Assembly (NCBI GenBank): GCA_016290905.1
Contig: JAEEVO010000020.1
Location: 1 to 37,126, forward strand
Source of the DNA: Lachnospiraceae bacterium
GTDB taxonomy: Bacteria > Bacillota > Clostridia > Lachnospirales > Lachnospiraceae
Direction: 5' to 3'
Length of the DNA stretch: 37,126 nt
The translations under genes and the position numbers were made by a program. The notes below the pieces were generated by a model, which saw only the letters and a program-made list of their open reading frames with translations, searched no databases and had not been told where the DNA came from. Every line of letters starts with the position of its first letter. Within the stretch, counting starts at the first letter, position 1. Positions 12,642 to 37,126 of the stretch are shown piece after piece.

Positions 12642-14951
12642 CTACAGATAGTTTTCCCAAAGACTTATTATTTCTCCCTGTTCATTGAGCCTGCAAGCAA
12701 AAGGATAAACATATTCAAATGCCCCTTCACCGGGTTCAATCTTCCCATCAGGCTGAACAAATACATACCAGTCAGTGATATATTTAAGGTCAGATTTTGT
12801 TAAATAATACGCTTTTTTCTCCCTAAGCTTGTGCTTACATTTAACTACGATCTCGCAGTTTTCCGCAAGCTTATATTCAGCAGTTGCTCCGGTAAAATTG
12901 TAAATTCCGGGATTCTCCGTATATTCAATTATTCTGACAGACAAAGTCCCGTCATTGTCCAATGTATCAAGTACAGCATAGAAACAATCTTCTGATTTTG
13001 TAACTGTCTCGAGGCATTCGGGCTTTCTCCCATACTCAACATTAGAAAGATCATCACTCACAACTTCAATCAGCGGATATGCTTCCTCGTTGACACCGAT
13101 TATTGCCTGTTTAATTCTTTCGTCAAGGGAATAGCTTTCATAAAAAGCCCATCTCTCGATATCAATGTTTTCAATATTCCCATTAAATATCACATCATGA
13201 AGTCTCCCACAGTTAGCAAAAGCACGCTCACCGATAGATTTAACATTTTGGGGAATTACTATCTCAGAAAGTTTTCCGCATTGGAAAAATAACCATGGCT
13301 CAATCTCTTCTACAGAATCCGGTAAATTAATTCTTTCAAGATTTATACATTGCCAGAAAGCTCCTCCTCCTATTTTACTGACACTTTCCGGAATGTTGAT
13401 TTCTTTAAAACGACAGTTATAAAAAGCTTGAGGGAAAATAGCGGTTACCGAGTCAGGTATTACAGTATTGTCACAACCGTAAACAAGCATACCTGAATTT
13501 GATTCAATTATTGCATTACAATCATTCCTGCTGTCAAATACCGGATTGTTCTCGTCGACCTTTATGGTGACCGGTCTGTTATAATTTGATAATCTTTCCA
13601 AATCACATATATTTATTTCGATAAAATCCGCAGGTACATATAACTCTAAAGTTTCTTTGTTAAAATACTTTTCCAGATTATTTTCCTTTTCATCCCCTAT
13701 TGCTCCGATATCGGAGTACAGATATTCATCATAATGCACTATTTTGGTTCCGTTATCCTTAATCTCCTCACTTGCAACCCATGGGGATCGTGGTCTAGTT
13801 TCCCTGATAACCGCGCTTGATGAAACAGCCGGAATTCCAATATCCTGCTTTTCAGTTTCCTGAGCCTGACTCTTGCCCGTAGCAAATACCGCCACCAAAC
13901 ATGTAATTGCAAGAATACCGGCAATTACCGACGCTATTATAGATTTTTTCTTAAAATTCATTATACTTTTAATCCTTTCTTTGACGCTTACCTCGCCAAA
14001 CGATACAAGTCCTATATTTCGTTTTGAGCCTGATAAACCGTACTTATACAATATGTCAGCATATTGAACAACGTAATCATGACCGGCAGACTTTATAACA
14101 CCTTCGTCACAGGCAAGTTCTATATCCTTACAAAGCATTTTAAACGCAATCCATACAAAAGGTGAGAACCAATAAAACGCTAACAAAATAAACCAAATAC
14201 ACTTTATCAGTTGATCTTTTCTCTGAATATGTTTTTGTTCATGTGCCGACAAATACCCACGATCACCTTCTTTTACAACATATCCGATATATATCCTTGG
14301 TCTGACCAACCCAAAAACAAATGCCGATTCTGTGTTCTCAGTCAGGTATATATTTTTTTCCGAATTGAGTCTGACTGCTGTCCGAAGTCTGTTCCTGATC
14401 ATCAGAACTTTAACCAGACCATACAGCAGTATAATTGCTGTTCCCGAAATCCATATAAATCCGGATACTGTCATAAAATCATCCACTTGATCATTTGTAT
14501 TTACATCCGTTTTTTGCACAGAATATGGTAATAGCGTATTATCCTTCTTTTCCTGAATGTAAAGATAAGTCAATTCACTTTCATGGACCTCTGATGAAAG
14601 TGAAGTTTTATTACCATCCCTGTTAATTGATAATGTATCTCTCTCAAACTCTGTATAGTTATGTTCGGCATTTCTAAGATCATAAATGTCAGCAGTATCA
14701 TCTGCAGAAATCCTGCCCAGTTTTTCCTGTAATAATCCGCTGATAATGTTTTCCGGTATCAGCCTTGGAATAACCGCATTTTTGCTTTCCATAGGCCAAA
14801 ATACCAATAGCCGGATCCCTACCAATATCCATAACATAGATATTGCCGAACGTGATGCTTTTCTAAATACCTGTCGGATAATGAGTACAATGCAGACCAT
14901 GATTCCTGAATAAATACTTACTTCAACAATATTGGAGAATATCTTACCCAT
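12642..14951 (-). CDS. BlaR1-like M56 membrane metalloprotease with external LRR domain
   Basis: A 769-residue protein. Membrane helices at about 8-27, 37-52, 160-182, 250-275 and 340-362 enclose an M56 protease with the zinc motif SAHEQKHIQRKD (HExxH, about 235-246) and DIELACDE (third ligand, about 283-290). In BlaR1/MecR1 a penicillin-binding sensor follows the last helix; here the external part (about 365-769) holds no SxxK transpeptidase motif but three to four BspA-type leucine-rich repeats at about 500-625 (VIPDSVTAIFPQAFYNC, INIPESVSKIGGGAFWQC, INLPDSVEEIEPWLFFQC, IVIPQNVKSIGERAFANC) and an unrecognised C-terminal domain of about 125 residues. It follows the BlaI-type gene by 15 bases; GGGAGG is 5 bases before the ATG. 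Likely role: sense an external ligand and destroy the repressor. Confidence 0.85.
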   Translation of the reverse strand: MGKIFSNIVEVSIYSGIMVCIVLIIRQVFRKASRSAISMLWILVGIRLLVFWPMESKNAVIPRLIPENIISGLLQEKLGRISADDTADIYDLRNAEHNYTEFERDTLSINRDGNKTSLSSEVHESELTYLYIQEKKDNTLLPYSVQKTDVNTNDQVDDFMTVSGFIWISGTAIILLYGLVKVLMIRNRLRTAVRLNSEKNIYLTENTESAFVFGLVRPRIYIGYVVKEGDRGYLSAHEQKHIQRKDQLIKCIWFILLAFYWFSPFVWIAFKMLCKDIELACDEGVIKSAGHDYVVQYADILYKYGLSGSKRNIGLVSFGEVSVKERIKSIMNFKKKSIIASVIAGILAITCLVAVFATGKSQAQETEKQDIGIPAVSSSAVIRETRPRSPWVASEEIKDNGTKIVHYDEYLYSDIGAIGDEKENNLEKYFNKETLELYVPADFIEINICDLERLSNYNRPVTIKVDENNPVFDSRNDCNAIIESNSGMLVYGCDNTVIPDSVTAIFPQAFYNCRFKEINIPESVSKIGGGAFWQCINLERINLPDSVEEIEPWLFFQCGKLSEIVIPQNVKSIGERAFANCGRLHDVIFNGNIENIDIERWAFYESYSLDERIKQAIIGVNEEAYPLIEVVSDDLSNVEYGRKPECLETVTKSEDCFYAVLDTLDNDGTLSVRIIEYTENPGIYNFTGATAEYKLAENCEIVVKCKHKLREKKAYYLTKSDLKYITDWYVFVQPDGKIEPGEGAFEYVYPFACRLNEQGEIISLWENYL

Positions 14952-14966
14952 TACAACCTCCCGACA

Positions 14967-15338
14967 TCAAGATTCTCTCTGCTTTCTTAACTCATCGAGC
15001 ATCTTCTGGATATCATCGATATCTTTATCTGTCATCTCTATACTTTTTGAAAACGCAGCTAAAAATGCCGGACAAGAGCTGTTGAATCTCGTATCCAGTA
15101 CTTCTCTTATCAATGATGTCTGAGCTTCTTCCTCACTGATCAAACTTCTGACAATCATCTTTTCACTGATCAGGATCCCGCGTTTTGTAAGTCTTTTTAT
15201 TACAGTATAAGTGGTTGACGGTTTCCATCCGAGCTCTTTTTCCACTATTTCAACTAACTTCCCGCTTTTTATCGGCTCATTTTCCCATATGATCTTACAG
15301 AGAAGGTACTCACTTTCAAACAATTTGTTCTCTTCCAT
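14967..15338 (-). CDS. BlaI/MecI-family transcriptional repressor
   Basis: About 123 residues from the ATG at 15338. A winged helix at about 5-75 (ESEYLLCKIIWENEPIKSGKLVEIV, PSTTYTVIKRLTKRGIL) and a helical dimerisation tail (SLIREVLDTRF...PAFLAAFSKSIEMTDKDIDDIQKMLDEL) fit the BlaI/MecI family. I chose 15338 because it aligns with the start of the second BlaI gene in this window (start 23992); AGGAG is 14 bases upstream, farther than usual, and in-frame starts at 15362 (ATG) and 15380 (TTG) remain possible. BlaI proteins bind dyads as dimers and are cleaved when the M56 partner is activated. Two matching dyads frame the promoter, supporting autoregulation. Confidence 0.85.
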   Translation of the reverse strand: MEENKLFESEYLLCKIIWENEPIKSGKLVEIVEKELGWKPSTTYTVIKRLTKRGILISEKMIVRSLISEEEAQTSLIREVLDTRFNSSCPAFLAAFSKSIEMTDKDIDDIQKMLDELRKQRES

Positions 15339-15384
15339 TATGCCGTATACATCTCCTCTCATAAAATAATTCTCGGTCAAAATT

Positions 15385-18685: not shown

Positions 18686-18746
18686 AACAACCAGCTCCTT
18701 TTTCAGATTTATTCTCTGTTCTTTTGCAAAAAGCAACATTTAAGTT

Positions 18747-18775
18747 ATTCTATCTCAAAATCCGAAAAAGTGCAA
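18747..18775 (-). promoter_or_regulatory. Predicted leuS promoter
   Basis: Minus-strand TTGCAC (18770-18775), 17-base spacer, TAGAAT (18747-18752). It lies in the short gap after the upstream LRR gene and gives a leader of about 55 bases. Confidence 0.6.
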
Positions 18776-18788
18776 GAGGAAAATTACA

Positions 18789-21011
18789 TTACCACTCGTC
18801 GTACGGCTGGTTTGTTATACGGTAATTCTCATATTCTTTAAGCCCGACCTCCTCAAGAGCAGCTCTATAAGCATCCATATCTCCGTCCTCGGGGATGAAT
18901 ATCATTATGCAGAACTCCTTATCCGAATTCCTCTCATCTACAAATTTCGGAGGCTCCTTGGTCTTAAAGATTATCTCTGCCGGTTCATATACGAGGTTTC
19001 TCCCGGTATAATACTCTCCCATCAGCTTTGACGAGAATGAAGAAATATCAATCTCCTTAACCGACTCAGGGATATTTAAAGTGTAGATATACCCTCTGAG
19101 AACAAACTCCAGATCCAGTTTCTCAAATTCCGCGTCTCCGATATTGGAATACACAAATCCTACTGCCGTATTTGTTCCTTTTTCAAGGAGCACATCACCC
19201 TTCTGGGTATATTTCTTGTTGTTCTTTTTAAAAGTAACGGTAATGTTGTTATTTGAAAAAGCTCTGTTTCCCAATACCGTAACCGTCTTCGGGATGGTAA
19301 CCTTTTTAAGCTTTGTGCTTGCAAACGCAGACTCTCCTATCGACTCCAGTCCGTTAGGAAGCGATATTTTCTTTAACGCCGTATCACGGAACGCGGCATT
19401 TCCGATCTCCTTGGTATATTTGCCAAGACTCACGCTCTTTAACGTGGTAATATAAGCCATTCCTTCGGGGATAACCGTAACAGTATCGGGGATAGTCAGC
19501 TTCGTTATAAGCGTCCCGGAAAAAGCATAGGGCATGATACTTGTTATCCCTTCCGGCATAGCTATCTCCCTGTATCTGAAGTCGGAAATACCTATGACGG
19601 TGCTTCCGTCCGCGGTCAGCAGCAGGCCGTATCTTGTTACAAAGGAGGTATTTCCCTTTGCCACCTTTACAAGCATCTTGTTCGCAACCGGTCCCTCAAT
19701 CTTTACCGTACCCTTCGGGATGGTCAGGGTAACCTTGTCCTTTCTTTCAGCGCTGTCATAAAACGCCCTGTTTCCTATGGAAAGAGTGTTCTCCGGCAGC
19801 TTGACTTCTTTCAGATTATACTCGCATGCGAATGCCATTTCCCCTATCTCAAGGCTTTTACAGTCATGTATGTTGATCTTTGTAAACCTTCCCGAAAGAA
19901 ACGCCTCTTTCTCAAGCTTTACATTTCCGCCCTTTATCTCAAGGCCGAGAGTTTCATCCCTGTAATTATCATTTAAGCTGAATGCCTTTTCGCCGACAAT
20001 CAGATCACCGGCATTTATCTCAATTTTACTGTACTGAGTCCATCTGAACGCAGATCTGCTTATCACCTTAACGGTCGAAGGTATTTTTACAGTTGTGAAA
20101 TTAAGACGTGAAAAAACGCCTGCATCTATATATCCGTATTCGTAATCATCTACCCATCCGGAGTATCTTATGCCCTCGTCGCCGATAACGGTAACCGTAT
20201 ACTTCTTTCCGTTGTATTTTGCCGTCTCGGGTACAGTAAACGCTACACCCTGCTCTAACCAGGGTCCATCCGAGATCTTATCATCCGCTTTTGTTCCTAT
20301 GAGAACAGCCTCATTGTCTCCGAGTGTCCTGTACAGATTGCTTCCGTCTGTAAAAACATCACCTTCCACATCAATGTTTATATGCAGCTCCACATAAAAC
20401 GTTGCAGGCTTTTTCTTTGCCAGTTGATCCGTCAGCATAACCGTAAAGGTATATGTTCCCTTGGGAAGATAGAAAACCGTAATCGGATCCTCATTGTTAT
20501 ATCTTCTTTTTTCTCCGCCGATTATATCGTTCGATCCCGTCAGCGCAAAAGAACCATACGCTCCCATTTGGAAATCTTCCTCAATTTTTTCTCCTTTTTT
20601 CAGTTCAAATTTCCCTGGGTCTTGTGGAAACCAGTCCGTGGACTTATATAACTTAACGCCGTTCGAACCGTCAATCCTGTAGGTCACTGAAGGTTTGCAT
20701 GTGGTTAGCTCTATTCCGTCCTTCTTGCCGATATACTCTATTTCAGTCTTCAGGCTAACCGGGTCTCCCGCATGGTATTCTTTTTTATCGGTCTTTAAAG
20801 TAATCCTTAAATTCTCGTTTTCGACCACGGATACTATGCTGTCACCTTCTACTGCATCCTCTTTAACAACCTTGCCGGTCCTCTTTGCGGAGGTCTTTTG
20901 TTCATAAATATTTGCCGAAGCCTTCTCTTTGGGAAACATTACCGCAAAAAGCAATGTTGCGAGGCATAAAAAGCCTAAAGCCGTTAGCGATCGTTTTATA
21001 ATGTTTTTCAT
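18789..21011 (-). CDS. Large secreted leucine-rich repeat (BspA-type) protein
   Basis: A 740-residue protein with a signal peptide (MKNIIKRSLTALGFLCLATLLFAVMF), a beta-sandwich-like region at about 65-215 (LRITLKTDKKEYHAGDPVSLK ... LPKGTYTFTVMLTDQL) that resembles BsuPI/intracellular proteinase inhibitor domains, and about ten LRR_5 repeats at about 270-690 (VTVIGDEGIRY, VKIPSTVKVISRSAF, VKLPENTLSIGNRAF, MPEGITSIMPYAF, LTIPDTVTVIPEGM, ISLPNGLESIGESAF, VTIPKTVTVLGNRAF). There is no LPxTG anchor or C-terminal helix, so it is either released or held by other means. It is the last gene of the second BlaI/M56 operon, 29 bases after the M56-LRR gene, and is therefore a likely output or partner of that sensor. 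The BsuPI assignment is tentative. Confidence 0.8.
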   Translation of the reverse strand: MKNIIKRSLTALGFLCLATLLFAVMFPKEKASANIYEQKTSAKRTGKVVKEDAVEGDSIVSVVENENLRITLKTDKKEYHAGDPVSLKTEIEYIGKKDGIELTTCKPSVTYRIDGSNGVKLYKSTDWFPQDPGKFELKKGEKIEEDFQMGAYGSFALTGSNDIIGGEKRRYNNEDPITVFYLPKGTYTFTVMLTDQLAKKKPATFYVELHINIDVEGDVFTDGSNLYRTLGDNEAVLIGTKADDKISDGPWLEQGVAFTVPETAKYNGKKYTVTVIGDEGIRYSGWVDDYEYGYIDAGVFSRLNFTTVKIPSTVKVISRSAFRWTQYSKIEINAGDLIVGEKAFSLNDNYRDETLGLEIKGGNVKLEKEAFLSGRFTKINIHDCKSLEIGEMAFACEYNLKEVKLPENTLSIGNRAFYDSAERKDKVTLTIPKGTVKIEGPVANKMLVKVAKGNTSFVTRYGLLLTADGSTVIGISDFRYREIAMPEGITSIMPYAFSGTLITKLTIPDTVTVIPEGMAYITTLKSVSLGKYTKEIGNAAFRDTALKKISLPNGLESIGESAFASTKLKKVTIPKTVTVLGNRAFSNNNITVTFKKNNKKYTQKGDVLLEKGTNTAVGFVYSNIGDAEFEKLDLEFVLRGYIYTLNIPESVKEIDISSFSSKLMGEYYTGRNLVYEPAEIIFKTKEPPKFVDERNSDKEFCIMIFIPEDGDMDAYRAALEEVGLKEYENYRITNQPYDEW

Positions 21012-21040
21012 ATCCTCTCTCCAATCCGTACCCGGTACTG

Positions 21041-23614
21041 TTATTTTACTTTTGCCTTCTTATTAACAGCCTTGATACTTGCTTTACTCTCATCCGAAAG
21101 ACTCGTACATTTGCTGAAGGAATACATTCCAATCTCTGTTACGCTTTCGGGGATGATTATCTCTTTCAGGTTAGTACAGTTCATAAACGCATACTCCTCT
21201 ATCCTTGTCAGTGACTTGGGAAGGTAAACCCTCTCCAGATCCGGACAAGCCGTAAAGGTCGACTGCTTTATAACTGTCACTCCTTCGGGTATCCTGATCT
21301 CTTTTATACCGCTCCCGCAGAAAGCGGCAATCCCTATATCCGTCACCGTTTCAGGGATATCAAAATGTTTTAGTGATTTACATTCCGTAAAAGCATTATT
21401 TCCTATCCTTGTAATGTTTCGGTTAAAATCCACCTCAGAAAGGCTTGAATCCTGACTGAAAGTACAATCCGGGATCTCGGTAAGGCCGTAAGGAAGCCTG
21501 CAGTATTTTAAGGAACTGTTATTGTTGAAAACGCCGGATTCCATTGTAGTAACACTGTCAGGAACCGATACTGAGCTTAACTTACAGCCCCAGAACGCAT
21601 TGATGCCAAGCTTGGTTACACTGTCCGGGATATTGACGGAAGTAAGACTACAAAACATAAACGCTCCTACTCCTATTTCCTTTATGCTTCCCGGAAGGTA
21701 CACGGTTGAGAGATTCTTGCAGTTTGCAAACGCTCCATCGCCTATAACCTCAACGGTATCCGGGATAGAGACGGATACGATCCCGTTCTCCCCGTTAAAA
21801 GCGTAATTCTTGATCTTGGTCACTCCGTTCGGGATTACGGCATTTTGAGCACTGGGAACTCCGGGGTTTTCAGTCCCGGGTACTTCGGTGTTCAAGCCTT
21901 CGTTTTTGATGTCGGCGATGTTATCGGGAGTATACGGTGTGTCAGGGTTCTTGGTCTCGGTGTCTGACGGAGTTTTATCCTCTGAGGTGTCTTTGTTTAT
22001 ATCCTCCGGAATGTCCGCATCTCTACTCTCAGTATCAGACGGTTTTTTATCCTCTGGGTTATTTACATTTTCCTCATTTATCTTATCACCGTCCGGGTCA
22101 GCTTTCTTTCTACCAATATCAGAATTGATAGCTTCGTCACCCTTTTTATCTTCCGCATCCGGATTATGCTCGGCATCCTCTTTCTTTACGTCCGTCTCAT
22201 CATCTATGGATTTATCCGTCTCTATATCCGTTTTTCCACCAGATGCTTCTTTATCATTTTCGTCCTGAGCATCCCCTGTCCGAGTTTTATAATCATTTAC
22301 TTTACTCTCTGCAGGGGTGTTTTCTTCATCTTCGGAGGCTGATACTATACTTTTATCATCCTCAACCGGTTCATCTTTCATCGCCGATGCGGGATTGGTC
22401 AGGAAACATCCCGTAAACAGTACACATCCGATTACCGTCCCGGCTATGACTACCTTCAGAGGTTTTTTCATGGAAATGACAGCTTTAACCCTTTCCTTCA
22501 CTCCTGTTTCGCTAAATGCGACAGGACATACCGTAAGCATCCTGTTATGTAACGAGCAGCTTAAAAGCGCCTCCGAATATGCTGCACGGTCAACCGGTGA
22601 AAGCTTCCCGACAGCCCTTTCATCACAGGCAAGCTCAAGATCCTTTGTAAAGCATATGAAAGCAATCCAAGCAAGAGGATTAAACCAATAAAGCATCAGC
22701 AGGATAAATCCGAAAACCTTCCATATCTGGTCAAGATGCCTGATATGCGCATTTTCATGCCTTATAACATATGCCAGATTCCGGGCATCCATGCCCTCCG
22801 GTATATACATTTTAGGCTTAAAAAGGCCTGTAATGAACGGAGAATTTATGCCTTCACAAACATACACCGGTGCCAGCGACTGACTCTTAAGTTCCAAAGG
22901 TATATCCGCCGGAACCGAAATTCGAGTCCTTCTTCTTATACGGATAATACTGAACACAAAGTAAATGAACAGGATGCCGCATCCGCCAAACCATATCACT
23001 GAAAGAATTGTGACGATGTTGTTTCCTTTGTTCTCGATGTTTTCTATACTCTCAATGTTTTTAAGTTTACTGTCATTTTCAGCAACAGTATCCGTTTTTT
23101 CAATCGGTTTATCGTTTTTATCCGTATTCCCGACTGTTGCTTCATTCGTCACCGCTAGGCTTATATTTTCGGATTCACTGATTTTTGCATCGGTTTCGTC
23201 AACTTTTTTTACGGATTCGCTGACCTTATCAATCGGTTCACTTATCTTTTCGCCAGGTTCACGGACTTCAGCGTTCGTCTTGATGTTATTTTCATCGGGT
23301 TCACGGACTGTTATGTCCATATTTCCAATTAAAACACCATCCCGGACAGCATTTTCCTGAACCAAACTTTCTTTCTCAGCCTCATCAGTTAAATACGTAG
23401 AATACGAAGCATGAAGTCCTTCTATGTCGGGAACCAGTGAAAAGCTGCTTGTGAGACCAAAAGGCATCACAAGGCGCACTGCTACAACCAGCCATAAAAC
23501 AAGATTTACCCTTTTGGGCAGTTTCTTTATAAACGGCCGCAACAGCAGAACTATTAATATGATAAAACCGGCTATGATGCTGGAATCCGCCAGCCACACA
23601 AGAATTTTTTCCAT
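21041..23614 (-). CDS. BlaR1-like M56 membrane metalloprotease with acidic stalk and LRR domain
   Basis: An 857-residue paralogue of the protein at 12642-14951. Helices at about 10-27, 38-55, 205-225 and 300-325 surround the M56 protease with zinc motif VIRHENAHIRHLDQ (HExxH, about 284-297) and DLELACDERAVGKL. A fourth/fifth helix at about 388-408 (VVIAGTVIGCVLFTGCFLT) ends in a lipobox-like cysteine. Outside follow an Asp/Glu/Lys/Pro-rich stalk (about 415-585) and some nine LRR_5 repeats (about 590-850: VIPNGVTKIKNYAF, VSIPDTVEVIGDGAF, VYLPGSIKEIGVGAF, VNIPDSVTKLGINAF, FDIPETVTDIGIAAF and others). No penicillin-binding motif is present. A second low-complexity D/E/K-rich loop lies at about 100-200. 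It starts 9 bases after blaI; GAGGG is 6 bases before the ATG. Confidence 0.85.
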   Translation of the reverse strand: MEKILVWLADSSIIAGFIILIVLLLRPFIKKLPKRVNLVLWLVVAVRLVMPFGLTSSFSLVPDIEGLHASYSTYLTDEAEKESLVQENAVRDGVLIGNMDITVREPDENNIKTNAEVREPGEKISEPIDKVSESVKKVDETDAKISESENISLAVTNEATVGNTDKNDKPIEKTDTVAENDSKLKNIESIENIENKGNNIVTILSVIWFGGCGILFIYFVFSIIRIRRRTRISVPADIPLELKSQSLAPVYVCEGINSPFITGLFKPKMYIPEGMDARNLAYVIRHENAHIRHLDQIWKVFGFILLMLYWFNPLAWIAFICFTKDLELACDERAVGKLSPVDRAAYSEALLSCSLHNRMLTVCPVAFSETGVKERVKAVISMKKPLKVVIAGTVIGCVLFTGCFLTNPASAMKDEPVEDDKSIVSASEDEENTPAESKVNDYKTRTGDAQDENDKEASGGKTDIETDKSIDDETDVKKEDAEHNPDAEDKKGDEAINSDIGRKKADPDGDKINEENVNNPEDKKPSDTESRDADIPEDINKDTSEDKTPSDTETKNPDTPYTPDNIADIKNEGLNTEVPGTENPGVPSAQNAVIPNGVTKIKNYAFNGENGIVSVSIPDTVEVIGDGAFANCKNLSTVYLPGSIKEIGVGAFMFCSLTSVNIPDSVTKLGINAFWGCKLSSVSVPDSVTTMESGVFNNNSSLKYCRLPYGLTEIPDCTFSQDSSLSEVDFNRNITRIGNNAFTECKSLKHFDIPETVTDIGIAAFCGSGIKEIRIPEGVTVIKQSTFTACPDLERVYLPKSLTRIEEYAFMNCTNLKEIIIPESVTEIGMYSFSKCTSLSDESKASIKAVNKKAKVK

Positions 23615-23623
23615 ATCTTACCC

Positions 23624-23992
23624 TCAAAAAGCGGAGTTTTTATACTCCTCTATCATACTTCTGATCTCATCGGCTTCTTTTTCGGAAACAGTCTTGTCGG
23701 AGATAAACGCTGCCAGGAATGCCGGCAGGGAGCCCTTAAAGTGCTCCTGAACGAACTGCCGGCTTTTCACACCGGCGAATTCTTCCTTTGACATGACCGA
23801 TGAAACCGTTCCGTTCTCATTTTTAAACAGTCCCTTCTCACAGAGCTTCCTCAGTACCGTAAATGTCGTGGATTTGTTCCACTCAAATCTTTCCTTGCAT
23901 ATCTTTACAAGATCCATTGATTTCACGGGCTCATATTCCCATATCAGATTTGCAAAACGCTCCTGAACCTCGCCCAATTCTATTTTCTGCAT
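23624..23992 (-). CDS. BlaI/MecI-family transcriptional repressor (second copy)
   Basis: A 122-residue protein with winged helix (VQERFANLIWEYEPVKSMDLV, KSTTFTVLRKLCEKGLFK) and dimerisation tail (SRQFVQEHFKGSLPAFLAAF...EADEIRSMIEEY). It resembles the repressor at 14967-15338 throughout. In BlaI/MecI the M56 partner cleaves near the junction of the two domains. GGGGAG lies 6 bases before the ATG. It stands between a secreted LRR gene and the M56-LRR gene, so this operon places the repressor second and not first. Likely operators are the dyads at 24781-24819. Confidence 0.88.
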   Translation of the reverse strand: MQKIELGEVQERFANLIWEYEPVKSMDLVKICKERFEWNKSTTFTVLRKLCEKGLFKNENGTVSSVMSKEEFAGVKSRQFVQEHFKGSLPAFLAAFISDKTVSEKEADEIRSMIEEYKNSAF

Positions 23993-24008
23993 TTTCTGCT
24001 CCCCATTC

Positions 24009-24758
24009 TTACTTTATTTCATTGATCACACATTGCCCGAGCGATACTTTCTTAACAAGCAGCTCCAGCACTTCAACATAGTACTCAGATTTTACGTTTA
24101 TCCCGACACCGGTAAGCGGCTGGTTCTTCACCCCTTTGGGAACCTTGCCTTCAAAGGTCAGGGAAGTGCAGGACTTCGGTATGATATACGTCCCGATTTT
24201 CTTGACCTTCTCGGGGATAACCATTGCCTTTATATTATTACACTTATAAAGTGCGTAGCCCTCTATTGTTTTGCAGGTCTTCGGAAGTAAAACCTCCGAA
24301 ACCGCGGGAGTTATGTCTTTTATACCGGCATAAGCCACAAAAAGATAGGCGGGAACCGTTTTAACCGAAGTTTCCGACATGTCGAGGCTTACAATGTTCA
24401 CGCCCATGCACTCGGACTTTATCTCCTTGATCGTCGAGGGGAGCTTCACCTGCACACTGCATGTTATGCCGTCCTCAGAAAAAGCCTTGTAGCCTATCGA
24501 AGTTACAGTGTACTCTTCGCCATCCTTATATACGAGACTCTCCTGTTCATAGCACTTTCCGTCGTAATCGGTCAAAGGCCTCGATTTTACAAGCATGGCT
24601 CGGTGATTCTTCATACTCGTCACCTTATACAACGCCCCTTCATACTCGAACATGTCCGTCTCGGTACTTTTCGCGCTTGACGGCTCCGGTTTTACCGTCA
24701 CAAGCAAAAGCATGAACACTGCAAGTCCGACTATCATTACCTTCATCATTTTTTTCAT
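24009..24758 (-). CDS. Small secreted leucine-rich repeat protein
   Basis: A 249-residue protein with signal peptide (MKKMMKVMIVGLAVFMLLLVTV) and about four BspA/LRR_5 repeats at about 85-210 (YTVTSIGYKAFSE, VKLPSTIKEIKSECM, VLLPKTCKTIEGYALYKC, MVIPEKVKKIGTYI). It is the first gene of the second BlaI/M56 operon: 16 bases separate it from blaI. GGGGGA lies 8 bases before the ATG. Secretion and shared LRR type with the sensor suggest a ligand-binding partner, decoy or co-receptor, which is inference. Confidence 0.8.
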   Translation of the reverse strand: MKKMMKVMIVGLAVFMLLLVTVKPEPSSAKSTETDMFEYEGALYKVTSMKNHRAMLVKSRPLTDYDGKCYEQESLVYKDGEEYTVTSIGYKAFSEDGITCSVQVKLPSTIKEIKSECMGVNIVSLDMSETSVKTVPAYLFVAYAGIKDITPAVSEVLLPKTCKTIEGYALYKCNNIKAMVIPEKVKKIGTYIIPKSCTSLTFEGKVPKGVKNQPLTGVGINVKSEYYVEVLELLVKKVSLGQCVINEIK

Positions 24759-24780
24759 AAGGACTTTCCCCCTTATAATT

Positions 24781-24819
24781 GGTTTACTCTGTTTAAACCT
24801 ATTTTACTCCGGATAAACC
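24781..24819. promoter_or_regulatory. Tandem operator-like dyads of the second BlaI/M56 operon
   Basis: GGTTTACTCTGTTTAAACC (24781-24799) is a GGTTTA-N7-TAAACC dyad over the predicted start site. ATTTTACTCCGGATAAACC (24801-24819) repeats 14 of 19 bases exactly 20 bases on, over the -10 box, and keeps TTTA-N7-TAAA. Two helical turns separate the sites, so dimers could bind on one face. Confidence 0.6.
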
Positions 24820-24829
24820 ACTTTGTCAA
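24801..24829 (-). promoter_or_regulatory. Predicted promoter of the second BlaI/M56 operon
   Basis: Minus-strand TTGACA (24824-24829), 17-base spacer, TAAAAT (24801-24806). Divergent from the CvfB-like gene, whose own promoter is weak by eye (TATAAG at 24882-24887). Confidence 0.75.
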
Positions 24830-24918
24830 TAGTTTTTTTTAGAATATAAAAAATATTGAAGTATGGGTTTGATTGTGGTAGTATAAGAACATCAGTTTAA
24901 ACATTTACGGAGACAGAT

Positions 24919-26001
24919 ATGGCATTTCGCGATAACGATAACAAAAAAACTTCAGGTAACAAAAGGCAGGGCTACGGAAACAAGACCGGCTATGACAAAA
25001 GACCCGGCTACAGCAGAAAAACAGGATACGGTTCAGGCAGACAGGGCACCCGCTCACGTTCCGCCGAAGAAGATAAAAAGCCCGACAACGAGCCCAAATC
25101 CGCTCCGTCGGACATTTCCGAATTAAAAGATTACATGGGACAGGTATGCTCCTACCGTATAGTGAGGGTCACTCCGATAGGCGCCTATATCACTCCCGTT
25201 TCGACCGTTTCGGGCGAGTCACTGCCGGATGACGTTCAGCATCCCGAGATCCTTCTTCCCAAGAACGAATTCGGTGAAAAGACTCCGGACAAGGGCAGGA
25301 TACTCAGCGCCTTCCTCTATCACGACTCAGAGGACAGACCCGTGGCCACCCTTAAGACTCCGGCACTTACCATAGGAAAGCTTGCCGTATTAAAGTGCAG
25401 GCAGGCATCAACGATAGGAGCCTTCCTCGACTGGGGTCTCATGAAGGATCTCTTTCTCCCGTTCAAAGAACAGACCGCAAGGGTAAAAGCGGATGACGAT
25501 GTACTGGTTACCCTTTATCTTGATAAAAGCTGCCGTTTGTGTGCCTCCATGAAGGTATACAAGCTGCTCCGTACCGATTCCGACTATATGACGGGGGATA
25601 ACGCAGACGGTCTCGTCTATGAGCTTTCAACAGAACACGGTGCCTTCGTTGCTATCGACAATATGTTCTCCGCCATGATCCCAAGACGGGAGCTCATGCG
25701 CGACGTAAGAGTCGGTGAAAGGCTCAGGTTCCGTATCGCCCGCATCCTTCCCGACGGAAAACTGGAGCTTTCCATGCGCGAACCGGGATATCTTCAGATA
25801 AACGAAGACTGTGACAGGATTTACGAGGAACTTCAGAAATCTCCAAACGGTTTCCTTCCTTATCACGATAAGACCGCAAGCCTCGTCTTAAAGACCAAGT
25901 TCAATATGTCAAAGAACTCTTTCAAGCGCGCTATCGGGCATCTCTACAAAAAGGGTCTGATAACAATAAAAGAAGACGGGATCTGCTTAAACGACAGATG
26001 A
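24919..26001 (+). CDS. cvfB: CvfB-family S1-domain RNA-binding protein with basic N-terminal extension
   Basis: A 360-residue protein. Residues 1-60 are a low-complexity Gly/Lys/Arg/Tyr-rich tail (KRQGYGNKTGYDKRPGYSRK). From about 75 onward the order of S1-like domains and a C-terminal winged helix (FLPYHDKTASLVLKTKFNMSK, FKRAIGHLYKKGLI) matches CvfB/YitL, including TIGAFLDWGLMKDLFLPFKEQ in the second S1 domain. CvfB of Staphylococcus aureus binds RNA and affects virulence gene expression; family members are usually about 280-300 residues, so the basic tail is an addition, probably disordered and RNA-binding. GGAG lies 6 bases before the ATG. It is a single-gene unit divergent from the LRR/BlaI operon. 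Confidence 0.88.
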   Translation: MAFRDNDNKKTSGNKRQGYGNKTGYDKRPGYSRKTGYGSGRQGTRSRSAEEDKKPDNEPKSAPSDISELKDYMGQVCSYRIVRVTPIGAYITPVSTVSGESLPDDVQHPEILLPKNEFGEKTPDKGRILSAFLYHDSEDRPVATLKTPALTIGKLAVLKCRQASTIGAFLDWGLMKDLFLPFKEQTARVKADDDVLVTLYLDKSCRLCASMKVYKLLRTDSDYMTGDNADGLVYELSTEHGAFVAIDNMFSAMIPRRELMRDVRVGERLRFRIARILPDGKLELSMREPGYLQINEDCDRIYEELQKSPNGFLPYHDKTASLVLKTKFNMSKNSFKRAIGHLYKKGLITIKEDGICLNDR

Positions 26002-31296: not shown

Positions 31297-34200
31297 TTAC
31301 TTAACCTTCTCAGCTACGAAATGAAGCACGATATCTGCACCGGAATCTTTGATCAGTTTAGTAAGTCTCTTTTGCTCCTTATCGAGCTGTTTTTTAGTCT
31401 TGACATAGGAGAGGTTGATCGTAAGCTCCGTAATTCCTTCAAATGCACCCTTTTCTATCGTGGTAACCTTACCGTTAAAGATAATATTTGTAAGGTTATC
31501 GCAGCCTGCAAAAGCACCTGCACCTATTTTCTTAACATACTTTCCGAGCTTGATGCTCTTTAAGTCATCGTTGCCGGCAAAAGCATTCTTCGCGATCGAA
31601 GTAACCTTATGCCTTACGCCGCCTGCCTTGACAGATTTTCCGATTACTACGTTTCCTTTAGCATCGGGAGTCTTTTCCGTAACGGAGAATTCCCCGTTTT
31701 TGCTCATGCTGTAGCTTGTGGTCGAAGTGTTTTCACCATCGTTGGAAACAACAGAATATGTTCCTTTACCGTTCTTCTTCTGTTCAAAGGTCTTAACCAG
31801 TGTTGAACCGTCATCGTAAACAGTCTCCGAAACACTCTTCTTTGCGCCGTTGCCCTTCTTTTCGGTATTTGTCGTTACAGTCTTGCCTTCAGTCTGAGTG
31901 ACGGTCTTCTTTGTCTCCTGTATCAGGTTACCTTCCGTATCGGTCATCTTGACGTTGTTAACAGTCTTGTCGTCACTTGTCATCTGATAGATTGTTTCAA
32001 CAATATCAGATGTAGGGAAAACTATCTTGGAAGTTGTCTCTGTTGTAGTCCCTGTTACTTCGGTCTTTGTCTCAGATGTCTTAACCACATTTCCGTTCTT
32101 GTCCGTCTTGGTTTCACTGGACTCGGTCACGGAACCGTTTTCCGTCTGAGTTTCTTTCGTTGTCTCTTTGATCACATTACCGGACTTATCGGTCGTAGTT
32201 CTCTGTACAGTCTCGGTCTTTCCGTCAGCACTCGTTGTTTTCTCTTCAACCGTCTTGGGTCCGTCATTACCCGAAGGCTTGTCGCCATCCGGATTAACGT
32301 TATCATTGATAACCTGACCGCCGCCCGAGGTATTATAATTGTTATAATTGTTATTATTGTTATTATTGTTGTTATTGTTGTTATTATTGTTATTATTGTT
32401 ATTGTTATTATTATTGTTATTATTGTTACTCTGGCCGCCGCCCGAAGGATTCTGTACCGATACAGTTACCTTAATATATGCTGCATCTATATCCTCATAT
32501 AATTCTCCGCCATCGACCTTATACCATACATAATAGGTTCCGGCATTTTTCCCTTTAGGTATATTGCTACTATATGCACCTGCTTCAGGAGCTGTTTCGG
32601 TAGTTGTAACCGCATACTTAAATGTACCGCCGTCTGCTTTTCCCTCTGTTACAAGTGCTTTTTCACTGCCGTCTGCCGTAAAATTATTTGCCAAAGGAGG
32701 TACAGTAATCTTATTTTTCCCTTTATTTACAACAAATGTCTTTGTAACCGAACCTACATAATCACCCTTACCGGTAACTGTAACATAATAATCTCCGGGC
32801 TTCACAGGTGTTATTTCTGTATTGTTTTGGGTTATAATTACGGAATAATCCTTTCCTAAAGTAAGCTCTCCGCTCTCTGAACTAACCTTCACAGCAGGAG
32901 TAAGGTTATTTCCCGTATAATCTTGTGCAGGGATATCTGCAACCTTAAAAGTCTTTTTATAGTACAATTTACCTTCATCAAGGACTACGGTATAGTATTT
33001 ATTATCACTGGTGAAAACTTTTGCATCGTCAGCTGAGATATTATATGAGCCTTCAGCGGTTGCTAATTCTCCGTTGGCAAGAAAATATTCCGAAAGATCA
33101 AGATCATATTTTTTAAGCGATGCTCCGATATTTCCCGTTAATTCTCCGGAAATTGAAAATTCGCTCTCGGCACCAACTAATAGATTGCTGTCTTCTTCAG
33201 TATAATCTGTTTTAATCAGTTTATTATCTTTAATAGAAACATTTCCTATAATTTTAAATTTAGAACCATAAACTCCAACTCCACCATTATCTTCTTTGGC
33301 AATGTTTTCGGAAATTTCTCCGCCTTCCATTATAAAAGTACAATAAAGATCACCAATAACTGCTACTCCACTCGAAATATCTATAGAACCATGAACTCCA
33401 ACTCCACCATCAACTTCGGCTGTATTCTTGGAAATTTTTCCGGCTGTCATTTTAAAGGTCGCACCTGCACGACCAGTCGGGGAAACATTAACTCCGCCAC
33501 CACATGCTGCTGCATTTTCAGTGATTTCTCCACCTGTCATTGTAAAGGTTGTTGAATCTGAAACCGTTACTCCACCTCCACCACCTGTAAGTAAAGTTTG
33601 GAGATTTTCATTATAAACTGCTTCATTTCCGGTGATTTTTCCACCTGACATTGCAAATTCGGTATTATTACCAATAGTAAAAACTCCACCACCGTTTATT
33701 GCAGTATTTTCAGAGATTTCTCCACCGGTCATTGTACCGGTCTTACCTGAAGTGTCATACACTCCGCCGCCTTCTCCTCCAAATTGATTAACTGCATCAT
33801 ATTCTGCCTTGTTCCCGGTGATTTTTCCGCCTTTCATAGTAAAGATTCCATTTTCACCAACAAAAATTCCGCCACCTTTTACAGCTGTATTGTCAGTGAT
33901 AGTTCCACTTTCCATTGTAATGGTAGCACTATCAGCTAACAAAACTCCGCCACCAGTCCTATTTGCGGTATTCCCGGAGATGTTTCCGCCTTTCATAGTA
34001 AAGGTTCCATTTGCACCAACAAAAATTCCGCCACCATCTGTTGCGGTATTTCCGGCGAGTTTTCCACTATTTTCTCCTTCTTCCAGCGTAATGATAGTCC
34101 CATTTCCATGACCCAAAATTCCACCGCCATTTTTTGCAGTATTGCCGGAAATCTCTCCTTTTGTCATAGTAATGGTTGAATTATATATACAAACTCCACC

Positions 34201-35241
34201 TCCATTGGTTGCAGTATTTCCCTCTGAGGCAGTTCCGCCGATTATTCCGCCTCCTATTGTGATAGAAGCGTCATCTTTGCCACAAATTCCGCCACCATTG
34301 TCTGCGGTATTTCCGGAGATTGTTCCATTGGTCATATTAAAGGTGGCACGCTCTACATAAACTCCGCCTCCAAGACCACTTCTACTTACAGAACTACTAT
34401 ATTCTGCTTTGTTTCCGGTAATTTTTCCGCCATTCATTGTAAAAGAAGCATTTCCAGTAGGATATGAAGTGCTATCATGGTCAACCCAAACTCCGCCACC
34501 TTGTTTTGCGGTATTATTGGAGATTTCTCCGCTTGTCATTGTAAAAGTAGATTCTTTTACAAGAACTCCGCCGCCGTAAATAGTGGCTTTATTTTGGGAG
34601 ATGATTCCACCATTCATTGTGACGATTGCTCCATTCTCCACAAGAATTCCACCGCCGTTATCTGCAACATTTCCAACTATGTTAATATTCTCAATATTTA
34701 CAGTACAATCCTCTGTGGCAAAAATCGCGCCACCAAAACCCATATAACCCGTTCCACCGGTGATATATCCGCCAGTAACCATTACATAATCAGTACCGGC
34801 CTCCGGCTCATCTTCACTAACAGCTATACCACAACTTTGATCATTTAAAGATATATAATGAACCGGTATATTTTTAGTTCGTGAATCCTTTAAGTTAACA
34901 GTACTACCTGAAGCCGCATATATTACGGTATCATATTGACTTTGCATTATTCCATAACCATTAAAATCAATGGTGTATGTATTAGCATCAGAAAATTCTA
35001 TTCCTTCCGATACTGTTACATCTTTTTGAAGCTTAAGTGTACTTCCGCTATTCTCTTTTAATTTAGCTATAGCATATTCAAAGTTTTCAAATATGTGTGT
35101 TTGATCTCCGTATGTTACGATTGCAACAATTTCTGAATCTGCAGATACAGGTATGTATCCTGTCACCGGTATCTGTGAAACAGACAGTACAAGTCCTAAC
35201 AATACCGCACAAAGCCGCTTAAAAATACCTTTGGTTTTCAT
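31297..35241 (-). CDS. Giant secreted beta-helix adhesin with poly-Asn linker and LRR tail
   Basis: A 1314-residue protein. Signal peptide MKTKGIFKRLCAVLLGLVLSV; a right-handed beta-helix at about 150-680 built of some 18 repeats of 22-30 residues with the core TMxGGxIxxNxAxxGGGV; Ig-like/MBG-type domains at about 745-920 (IPAQDYTGNNLTPAVKV; VPPLANNFTADGSEKALV); a run of 27 consecutive Asn (codons 32347-32427); a Thr/Lys-rich repetitive stalk (KTDKNGNVVKTSETKTE); and a C-terminal LRR_5 tail (VTSIAKNAFAGNDDLKSI, VKKIGAGAFAGC, VTTIEKGAFEG). No LPxTG or transmembrane anchor is seen; the LRR tail may hold it to the cell. AAGGAGGA is 4-5 bases before the ATG. Probably surface adhesion or glycan binding, by analogy with polymorphic membrane proteins and BspA. 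Confidence 0.85.
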   Translation of the reverse strand: MKTKGIFKRLCAVLLGLVLSVSQIPVTGYIPVSADSEIVAIVTYGDQTHIFENFEYAIAKLKENSGSTLKLQKDVTVSEGIEFSDANTYTIDFNGYGIMQSQYDTVIYAASGSTVNLKDSRTKNIPVHYISLNDQSCGIAVSEDEPEAGTDYVMVTGGYITGGTGYMGFGGAIFATEDCTVNIENINIVGNVADNGGGILVENGAIVTMNGGIISQNKATIYGGGVLVKESTFTMTSGEISNNTAKQGGGVWVDHDSTSYPTGNASFTMNGGKITGNKAEYSSSVSRSGLGGGVYVERATFNMTNGTISGNTADNGGGICGKDDASITIGGGIIGGTASEGNTATNGGGVCIYNSTITMTKGEISGNTAKNGGGILGHGNGTIITLEEGENSGKLAGNTATDGGGIFVGANGTFTMKGGNISGNTANRTGGGVLLADSATITMESGTITDNTAVKGGGIFVGENGIFTMKGGKITGNKAEYDAVNQFGGEGGGVYDTSGKTGTMTGGEISENTAINGGGVFTIGNNTEFAMSGGKITGNEAVYNENLQTLLTGGGGGVTVSDSTTFTMTGGEITENAAACGGGVNVSPTGRAGATFKMTAGKISKNTAEVDGGVGVHGSIDISSGVAVIGDLYCTFIMEGGEISENIAKEDNGGVGVYGSKFKIIGNVSIKDNKLIKTDYTEEDSNLLVGAESEFSISGELTGNIGASLKKYDLDLSEYFLANGELATAEGSYNISADDAKVFTSDNKYYTVVLDEGKLYYKKTFKVADIPAQDYTGNNLTPAVKVSSESGELTLGKDYSVIITQNNTEITPVKPGDYYVTVTGKGDYVGSVTKTFVVNKGKNKITVPPLANNFTADGSEKALVTEGKADGGTFKYAVTTTETAPEAGAYSSNIPKGKNAGTYYVWYKVDGGELYEDIDAAYIKVTVSVQNPSGGGQSNNNNNNNNNNNNNNNNNNNNNNNNNNNYNNYNTSGGGQVINDNVNPDGDKPSGNDGPKTVEEKTTSADGKTETVQRTTTDKSGNVIKETTKETQTENGSVTESSETKTDKNGNVVKTSETKTEVTGTTTETTSKIVFPTSDIVETIYQMTSDDKTVNNVKMTDTEGNLIQETKKTVTQTEGKTVTTNTEKKGNGAKKSVSETVYDDGSTLVKTFEQKKNGKGTYSVVSNDGENTSTTSYSMSKNGEFSVTEKTPDAKGNVVIGKSVKAGGVRHKVTSIAKNAFAGNDDLKSIKLGKYVKKIGAGAFAGCDNLTNIIFNGKVTTIEKGAFEGITELTINLSYVKTKKQLDKEQKRLTKLIKDSGADIVLHFVAEKVK
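32347..32427 (-). repeat. Poly-asparagine codon tract
   Basis: 27 consecutive AAT/AAC codons in the adhesin gene, followed by YNNYN. The mixture of two codons gives an imperfect trinucleotide repeat that can change length without losing frame. Confidence 0.95.
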
Positions 35242-36683: not shown

Positions 36684-37126
36684 TTACTTAACCTTCTCAG
36701 CTACGAAATTAAGCACGATATCTGCGCCGGATTTTTTGAACAGTGCAGCAAGTCTCTTTTTCTCCTTATTGAGCTGTTTTTTAGTCTTGACATAGGAGAG
36801 GTTGATCGTAAGCTCCGTAATCCCTTCAAATGCTCCCTTTTCTATCGTCGTAACCTTACCGTTAAAGATAATGTTTGTAAGGTTATCGCAGCCTGCAAAT
36901 GCACCTGCACCTATTTTCTTAACATACTTTCCGAGCTTGATGCTCTTTAAGTCATCGTTGCCGGCAAATGCATTCTTCGCGATCGAAGTAACCTTATGCC
37001 TTACGCCGCCTGCCTTGACCGAGCTTCCGATCACCACGTTTCCTTTAGCATCGGGAGTCTTTTCCGTAACGGAGAATTCCCCGTTTTTGCTCATGCTGTA
37101 GCTTGTGGTCGAAGTGTTTTCACCAT
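36684..37126 (-). CDS. C-terminal LRR tail of a second adhesin, 5' part outside window
   Basis: The open frame enters from the right edge (GENTSTTSYSMSKNGEFSV) and ends at 36684. The 147 visible residues are nearly identical to the end of the 1314-residue adhesin (VTSIAKNAFAGNDDLKSI, VKKIGAGAFAGC, FVAEKVK), with differences mostly in the last 30 residues (NKEKKRLAALFKKSG against DKEQKRLTKLIKDSG). The internal ATG at 37094 is not the start. The similarity continues to the window edge, so at least part of the stalk is shared. What stands in front of it cannot be seen. Confidence 0.9.
   Translation of the reverse strand, partial: GENTSTTSYSMSKNGEFSVTEKTPDAKGNVVIGSSVKAGGVRHKVTSIAKNAFAGNDDLKSIKLGKYVKKIGAGAFAGCDNLTNIIFNGKVTTIEKGAFEGITELTINLSYVKTKKQLNKEKKRLAALFKKSGADIVLNFVAEKVK

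Follow-up and report, generated by a model that had tools for sequence, protein, structure and literature searches.

A four-gene operon combining a BlaI-type repressor, an M56 receptor with an LRR ectodomain and two secreted LRR proteins in a Lachnospiraceae genome

The DNA analysed here (the window) is a stretch of 37,126 nucleotides from a Lachnospiraceae bacterium (assembly GCA_016290905.1, contig JAEEVO010000020.1, positions 1 to 37,126 of the forward strand). It contains a set of four genes, all on the minus strand and separated by intergenic gaps of 16, 9 and 29 bases in the list of open reading frames (ORFs). Transcription runs from a gene for a small LRR protein through genes for a BlaI-type repressor and an M56-LRR receptor to a gene for a large LRR protein. 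This layout had been proposed in a preliminary description of the same DNA, and ORF positions, strand, order and Pfam families agreed with it. The features of the operon are as follows.

24824-24829, minus strand: TTGACA, -35 box of the promoter (the site matches the consensus at 11 of 12 bases with a spacer of 17 and is the top one in the region)
24801-24819, minus strand: op1, GGTTTATCCGGAGTAAAAT, predicted BlaI operator over the -10 box (TAAAAT, 24801-24806)
24781-24799, minus strand: op2, GGTTTA-N7-TAAACC, second predicted BlaI operator
24009-24758, minus strand: small secreted BspA-type LRR protein, 249 aa (Pfam LRR_5, 1.6e-12)
23624-23992, minus strand: BlaI/MecI-type repressor, 122 aa (Pfam Penicillinase_R, 2.5e-20)
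21041-23614, minus strand: M56 (BlaR1-type) metalloprotease-receptor with acidic stalk and LRR ectodomain, 857 aa (Peptidase_M56, 8.2e-47; LRR_5, 9.3e-88)
22745-22759, minus strand: HENAH zinc motif of the M56 domain, receptor residues 286-290
21845-22396, minus strand: acidic low-confidence stalk, receptor residues 407-590 (184 residues, net -33; pLDDT below 50 over residues 396-584)
21095-21844, minus strand: receptor LRR ectodomain, residues 591-840, followed by a C-terminal helix (Pfam, model and Foldseek)
18789-21011, minus strand: large secreted BspA-type LRR protein, 740 aa, with an N-terminal beta-sandwich (LRR_5, 4.8e-42)

The small and large LRR proteins both begin with a hydrophobic, signal-peptide-like N-terminus, as read from the sequence, and LRR_5 scored above the Pfam cut-off in both of them and in the receptor. 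The model of the large protein (mean pLDDT 76.5) consisted of an N-terminal beta-sandwich plus LRRs, and its best structural matches were PcpA 4cp6 and 4gt6. The beta-sandwich gave weak arrestin/VPS26/ApaG-like matches (E 0.003 to 0.02). LRR class and fold are the same as in the BspA-type (LRR_5) proteins PcpA, Faecalibacterium 4gt6, Bacteroides 4fs7 and TpLRR (6mlx); by their entry titles these structures are not protease-fused receptors, and the large protein differs from them by its additional beta-sandwich.

Hydropathy analysis of the receptor placed hydrophobic helices at about residues 4-22, 36-54, 206-224, 303-321 and 388-406, with an acidic loop of about 143 residues preceding residue 206 (TM3). 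The acidic stalk attributed to the sensor in the preliminary description was confirmed, residues 407-590 being 30% D/E and 12% K/R. The receptor model was poor overall (mean pLDDT 52.8), with a confident LRR part (10-residue block means of 85-96 over residues 591-850) that resembled solved BspA-type LRR proteins in Foldseek (4fs7, E 7e-16). Foldseek was uninformative on the M56 part of the model, where pLDDT was mostly below 60. The protease region aligned weakly with BlaR1 8exs (E 0.0027), and equivalents of BlaR1 H201, E202, H205, D210, E242, D246 and Y261 were present in all eight aligned M56-LRR receptors. Roles for these seven residues in BlaR1 are described in PMC9834060. The repressor aligned with MecI 1okr (6.7e-06), its A95-F96 pair falling on MecI 101-102; Phe is kept, and P1 of the presumed cut site is Ala, not Asn. 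This position reads [LI]AAF in 11 of 11 aligned BlaI proteins. According to PMC9834060, BlaI is cut between Asn101 and Phe102. By these comparisons, the relay is most likely of the BlaR1 type with a new sensor.

Just after the last helix of the receptor, an AxA-like motif is kept (NPASA, DPVSA). A signal-peptidase site after the last helix of BlaR1 is reported in PMC9834060. The motif may likewise be a putative signal-peptidase site, in which case release of the ectodomain is possible.

The M56 and Penicillinase_R families, together with partial matches to NCBIfam blaR1_generic, would fit a BlaR1/MecR1 system proper, an ordinary cell-envelope antibiotic sensor of the kind for which BlaR1/BlaI is known. 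We regard this as highly improbable for the present operon. Neither Pfam nor NCBIfam found a penicillin-binding domain in the receptor, where LRR_5 occupies the C-terminal extracellular position; blaR1_generic matched it partially, with 85 bits against a cut-off of 400; and the remaining genes of the operon encode LRR proteins. The likeness to BlaR1-BlaI and MecR1-MecI of S. aureus lies in the M56 gluzincin catalytic residues, the winged-helix BlaI-type repressor, the Phe at the presumed cleavage position and, by sequence only, paired dyads at the promoter, such as occur at the bla operon promoter. In contrast to these systems, the receptor has an acidic stalk bearing an LRR ectodomain where theirs have a penicillin-binding sensor, the co-operonic genes encode secreted LRR proteins and not beta-lactamase or PBP2a, the operator word differs, and the acidic loop before TM3 is longer.

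A search was made over 24 genomes of the same genus of rumen Lachnospiraceae, and the neighbourhoods of matches were fetched. Operon order was kept in four of these genomes (G008, G010, G006 and G004), with one extra gene in some, so that the arrangement is no chance one. The preliminary description had named loss of the LRR genes from beside BlaI/M56 in relatives as an observation that would count against it; in these relatives the LRR genes were conserved there. The G008 operon (L038) matches that of the window gene for gene. In G010 (L039) a further secreted protein with a weak DUF5050 match lies between receptor and large LRR gene, and G006 C6 (L036) has a Pfam-negative but homologous protein at that place and another before the small LRR gene. 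The G004 operon is split over two contigs (L040, L041), which probably adjoin, since L041 opens with an LRR fragment that resembles the receptor; here the extra proteins lie at the beginning of the operon and behind the large LRR protein. All five extra proteins are homologous to one another. Among the five operons, identities were 80-90% for BlaI, 48-70% for the small LRR protein, 54-63% for the large LRR protein and 45-59% for the receptor; the window proteins were 83-86% (BlaI), 48-56% (small LRR) and 54-59% (large LRR) identical to their four orthologues. In a second G006 copy (C44, L037) the operator and BlaI are present, the LRR gene is a different one, and the receptor ORF is without the first helices; degenerate small-LRR-like DNA precedes its BlaI gene, and by eye the copy looks decayed.

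Two short peptide patterns, used as a non-exhaustive search, found the large LRR protein in four Lachnospiraceae MAG records (one each from sheep rumen, water buffalo omasum and goat omasum, and one labelled Tb.RUG.451), which probably correspond to G008, G010, G006 and G004. One further match was partial, covering LRR only. In a sample of 397 genomes of the family, the window's own alone passed 1e-60. Outside the genus, M56-LRR fusions were seen in none of 28 M56 frames from 29 family loci and none of 15 from 28 class loci; these loci are best matches reaching about 1.5 kb past the match, so that some ectodomains are cut. Within the genus, eight of the 31 M56 rows of our tree carried LRRs, the rows having been picked by similarity to the receptor of the window. 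No paper on an LRR-bearing M56 receptor was found in the open literature searched. The reading frame L051:317-1306 was considered as a secreted copy of another M56 ectodomain and rejected, as it looks like a truncated M56 gene.

The promoter (TTGACA, 17 bases, TAAAAT) precedes the small LRR gene and is the strongest promoter-like site in the region. The preliminary description had ended the operon at 24829, which is the first base of the TTGACA box. Seven promoter-like sites were found in the region, as compared with a mean of 11.8 in shuffled sequence. As this count is not above that of shuffles, the promoter call rests on conservation, and additional promoters may lie inside the operon. At the six operon promoters found in the genus, op1 was exact at five (G000, two loci of G006, G008 and G010) and had one mismatch in G004. 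The spacing from TTGACA to op1 was identical at all six: TTGACA, four bases, op1, then op2. The distance from op1 to op2 was 20 bases in the window and 27-28 in the other operons. The exact op2 dyad occurred at one site per genome in G000, G004, G006, G008 and G010, always at this promoter; at the G006 C6 promoter op2 carries one mismatch. The operator is conserved this closely although the small secreted proteins share no more than 48-70% identity. These sequence features make op1 and op2 candidate BlaI operators.

Of the six operon leaders in the genus, five place op2 within a longer hairpin (z -2.9 to -4.9); the window has a short stem (z -1.1). In several of the leaders of L036, L037, L038, L039 and L040 the op2 hairpin runs into a T-rich stretch, and the two together resemble an intrinsic terminator.

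Allowing up to two mismatches, op1 was found at eight sites in seven of the 24 same-genus genomes. Six are at these operons, and the seventh precedes a BlaI-M56 pair of G002 that has no LRR. The eighth (L061; G017 C183:71709-71727) has two mismatches and a TTGACA at matching spacing, without op2; no BlaI match was present in the 3-kb locus around it. In a sample of 396 further genomes of the family, op1 with a single mismatch turned up at seven sites, all of which lacked a BlaI match in the fetched locus and, by eye, a TTGACA at the operon spacing. A wider regulon was not found, exact op2 being confined to the operon promoter in the five operon-bearing genomes. These results bear on whether the secreted LRR genes are passengers that happen to lie next to a BlaI/M56 pair with another target. 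LRR_5 is frequent in this genome, exceeding the cut-off in 21 reading frames, six of them in the window, and LRR genes also adjoin M56 genes without an LRR ectodomain (L014, L147), which tempers the argument from neighbourhood. Behind the same operator, however, all four orthologous operons retain both LRR families, and no second exact op2 site offers another target in the five genomes. We therefore consider the passenger explanation very unlikely.

The preliminary description had taken the repeat type shared by the secreted proteins and the sensor ectodomain as a sign that they work together. All three are indeed LRR_5 proteins, but the kinship is generic rather than specific. LRR frames were compared for 16 of the 21, those on C173, C164, C158, C127 and C69 being left out. 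When own-genome proteins were ranked against a profile of receptor ectodomains, there were 14 matches including the receptor; the large protein took seventh place and the small protein tenth, and L078, L077, L076, L079 and L080 outscored the large protein, in a measure that rises with repeat number. Specific kinship was mostly not found by this ranking. The small protein is a partial exception: among the own-genome proteins compared, its best non-self match was the receptor (48.3 bits, next 34.6).

This last result, together with the placing of receptor and both secreted proteins in one LRR class under one promoter, would suit a receptor that senses its own secreted partners by homotypic LRR-LRR contact, in a feedback, quorum-like or kin-recognition loop with the secreted proteins as ligand or decoy. 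Such a loop seems unlikely to us, given the ranks of the two proteins above and the lack of concerted evolution: the window ectodomain scored 65.3 bits against its own large LRR protein as compared with 69.4-84.7 bits against those of other species.

The window also encodes a 1314-aa secreted repeat protein with MTGGEISGNTA-like repeats and a C-terminal LRR (31297-35241, minus strand). A shorter ORF (36684-37094, minus strand) repeats its C-terminus almost letter for letter, and L084:1262-4672 begins like it.

A second BlaI/M56-LRR pair (locus 1) had been noted near the operon (locus 2), with leuS between them. The pair is present at 12642-15380, but it has no secreted LRR gene.

12642-14951, minus strand: locus 1 M56-LRR receptor, 769 aa, of a different subfamily
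14967-15380, minus strand: locus 1 BlaI-type repressor, 137 aa as called, with upstream dyads ATCTATCGCGATAGAT and ATCTATCACGATAGAT

The shared domain architecture within 12 kb had suggested duplication and divergence of the two loci, a proposal that the comparisons did not support. Identity between them is 34% for BlaI and 25% for the receptor, whereas the locus 1 BlaI is 68% identical to a BlaI of G008, and the operators differ. In the M56 tree (31 rows, eight with LRR), locus 1 grouped with L042 of G008 (96/89) and then with non-LRR receptors (95/89; 99/99). The locus 1 row is on a long branch, one of those for which the program gives a warning that long branches may meet, and support for the clade of locus 2 was 83/80. 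With locus 1 placed inside a group of non-LRR receptors, at least two changes of the LRR label are required, and a single LRR change was seen in 0% of 200 bootstrap trees. We give almost no credence to the two loci being diverged tandem duplicates. In G006 C6 (L035, L036) five M56 genes lie within about 30 kb, so that a cluster of such receptors is nothing peculiar to the window.

Other BlaI-M56 operons of the genus resemble locus 2 in having the BlaI-M56 pair and their own paired dyads beside TTGACA boxes, and differ from it in ectodomain (for example Big_14 in L033, and several without a Pfam match) and in operator word. The word is ATCTATCNCGATAGAT at locus 1, TGTCTAA-type in the C31 operon, and GTTTATTG-type at a G006 locus whose BlaI lies near that of locus 2 in the tree. 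The C180 and C138 operons have GTCTAAT-type dyads that are alike, and these two could therefore cross-talk.

The neighbours of the operon are genes that we take, from their sequence, to be leuS and an S1-like gene. The S1-like gene (24919-26001) is divergent and lies past the promoter; its protein was matched in 20 of the 24 genus genomes. In five of the 20 loci (G008, G002, G020, G006 and G013), leuS was within the 1.5-kb flank of this gene; 14 others did not have leuS in the flank and are uninformative on adjacency. The gap between the two genes was short in G008, G002 and G020. In the other two loci (L122, L126) it measured about 1.1 kb, with a further gene that looks secreted, for G006 and several hundred bases for G013. 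In the window the gap (18740-24918) is filled by the operon. Conserved sequence upstream of leuS continues until some 5 bases from the stop of the large LRR gene, and the right junction was located approximately, not to the exact base. In G008 and G006, the operons sit on other contigs than the leuS/S1-like locus. Since leuS and the divergent gene adjoin without the operon in three other species, the operon looks relocatable, and the gap between leuS and the S1-like gene is a possible insertion spot.

Computation established the gene content, a single strong promoter, conserved paired dyads that are unique to it in five genomes, intact catalytic residues and a conserved gene order. We conclude that this is probably a self-contained and autoregulated signalling operon of BlaR1/BlaI design, in which a BspA-type LRR ectodomain, carried on an acidic stalk, takes the place of the usual sensor. 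The preliminary description had proposed one circuit of receptor, repressor and outputs or co-receptors, and the secreted proteins may be either of the last two. A single transcriptional unit with one conserved promoter bearing BlaI-type dyads speaks for it, but the kinship of sensor and secreted LRR proteins, being generic, does not add to it. The circuit and its autoregulation are well supported, and the four genes appear to be induced jointly by the signal to which the sensor responds.

In the resting state, BlaI dimers would occupy op2 and op1, the latter covering the -10 box, and the operon would be shut. The LRR ectodomain would bind an extracellular ligand, which may be a surface glycan, a polymer or a protein. 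Ligand binding would activate the cytoplasmic-facing M56 zinc protease, and BlaI would be cut at A95-F96. Derepression would then yield more receptor, more repressor and more of both secreted LRR proteins, which would most likely serve as adhesins or binding proteins for the surface or ligand that is sensed.

An LRR-tipped relay with a private, strictly conserved operator and secreted LRR partners would extend the proteolytic relay to other extracellular ligands. The operon is also a small, testable receptor-to-promoter system, in which the unique operator makes a reporter test direct. A broader view, which we hold to be doubtful, is that BlaI-M56 serves as a plug-in chassis in rumen Lachnospiraceae: relocatable, insulated circuits with their own operator words and exchangeable ectodomains, the LRR ectodomain of this operon recognizing the same class of ligand as the neighbouring secreted LRR proteins or binding these directly. 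If true, such a chassis would represent a bacterial LRR-receptor pathway that signals by proteolysis of a repressor, with self-contained recognition and output.
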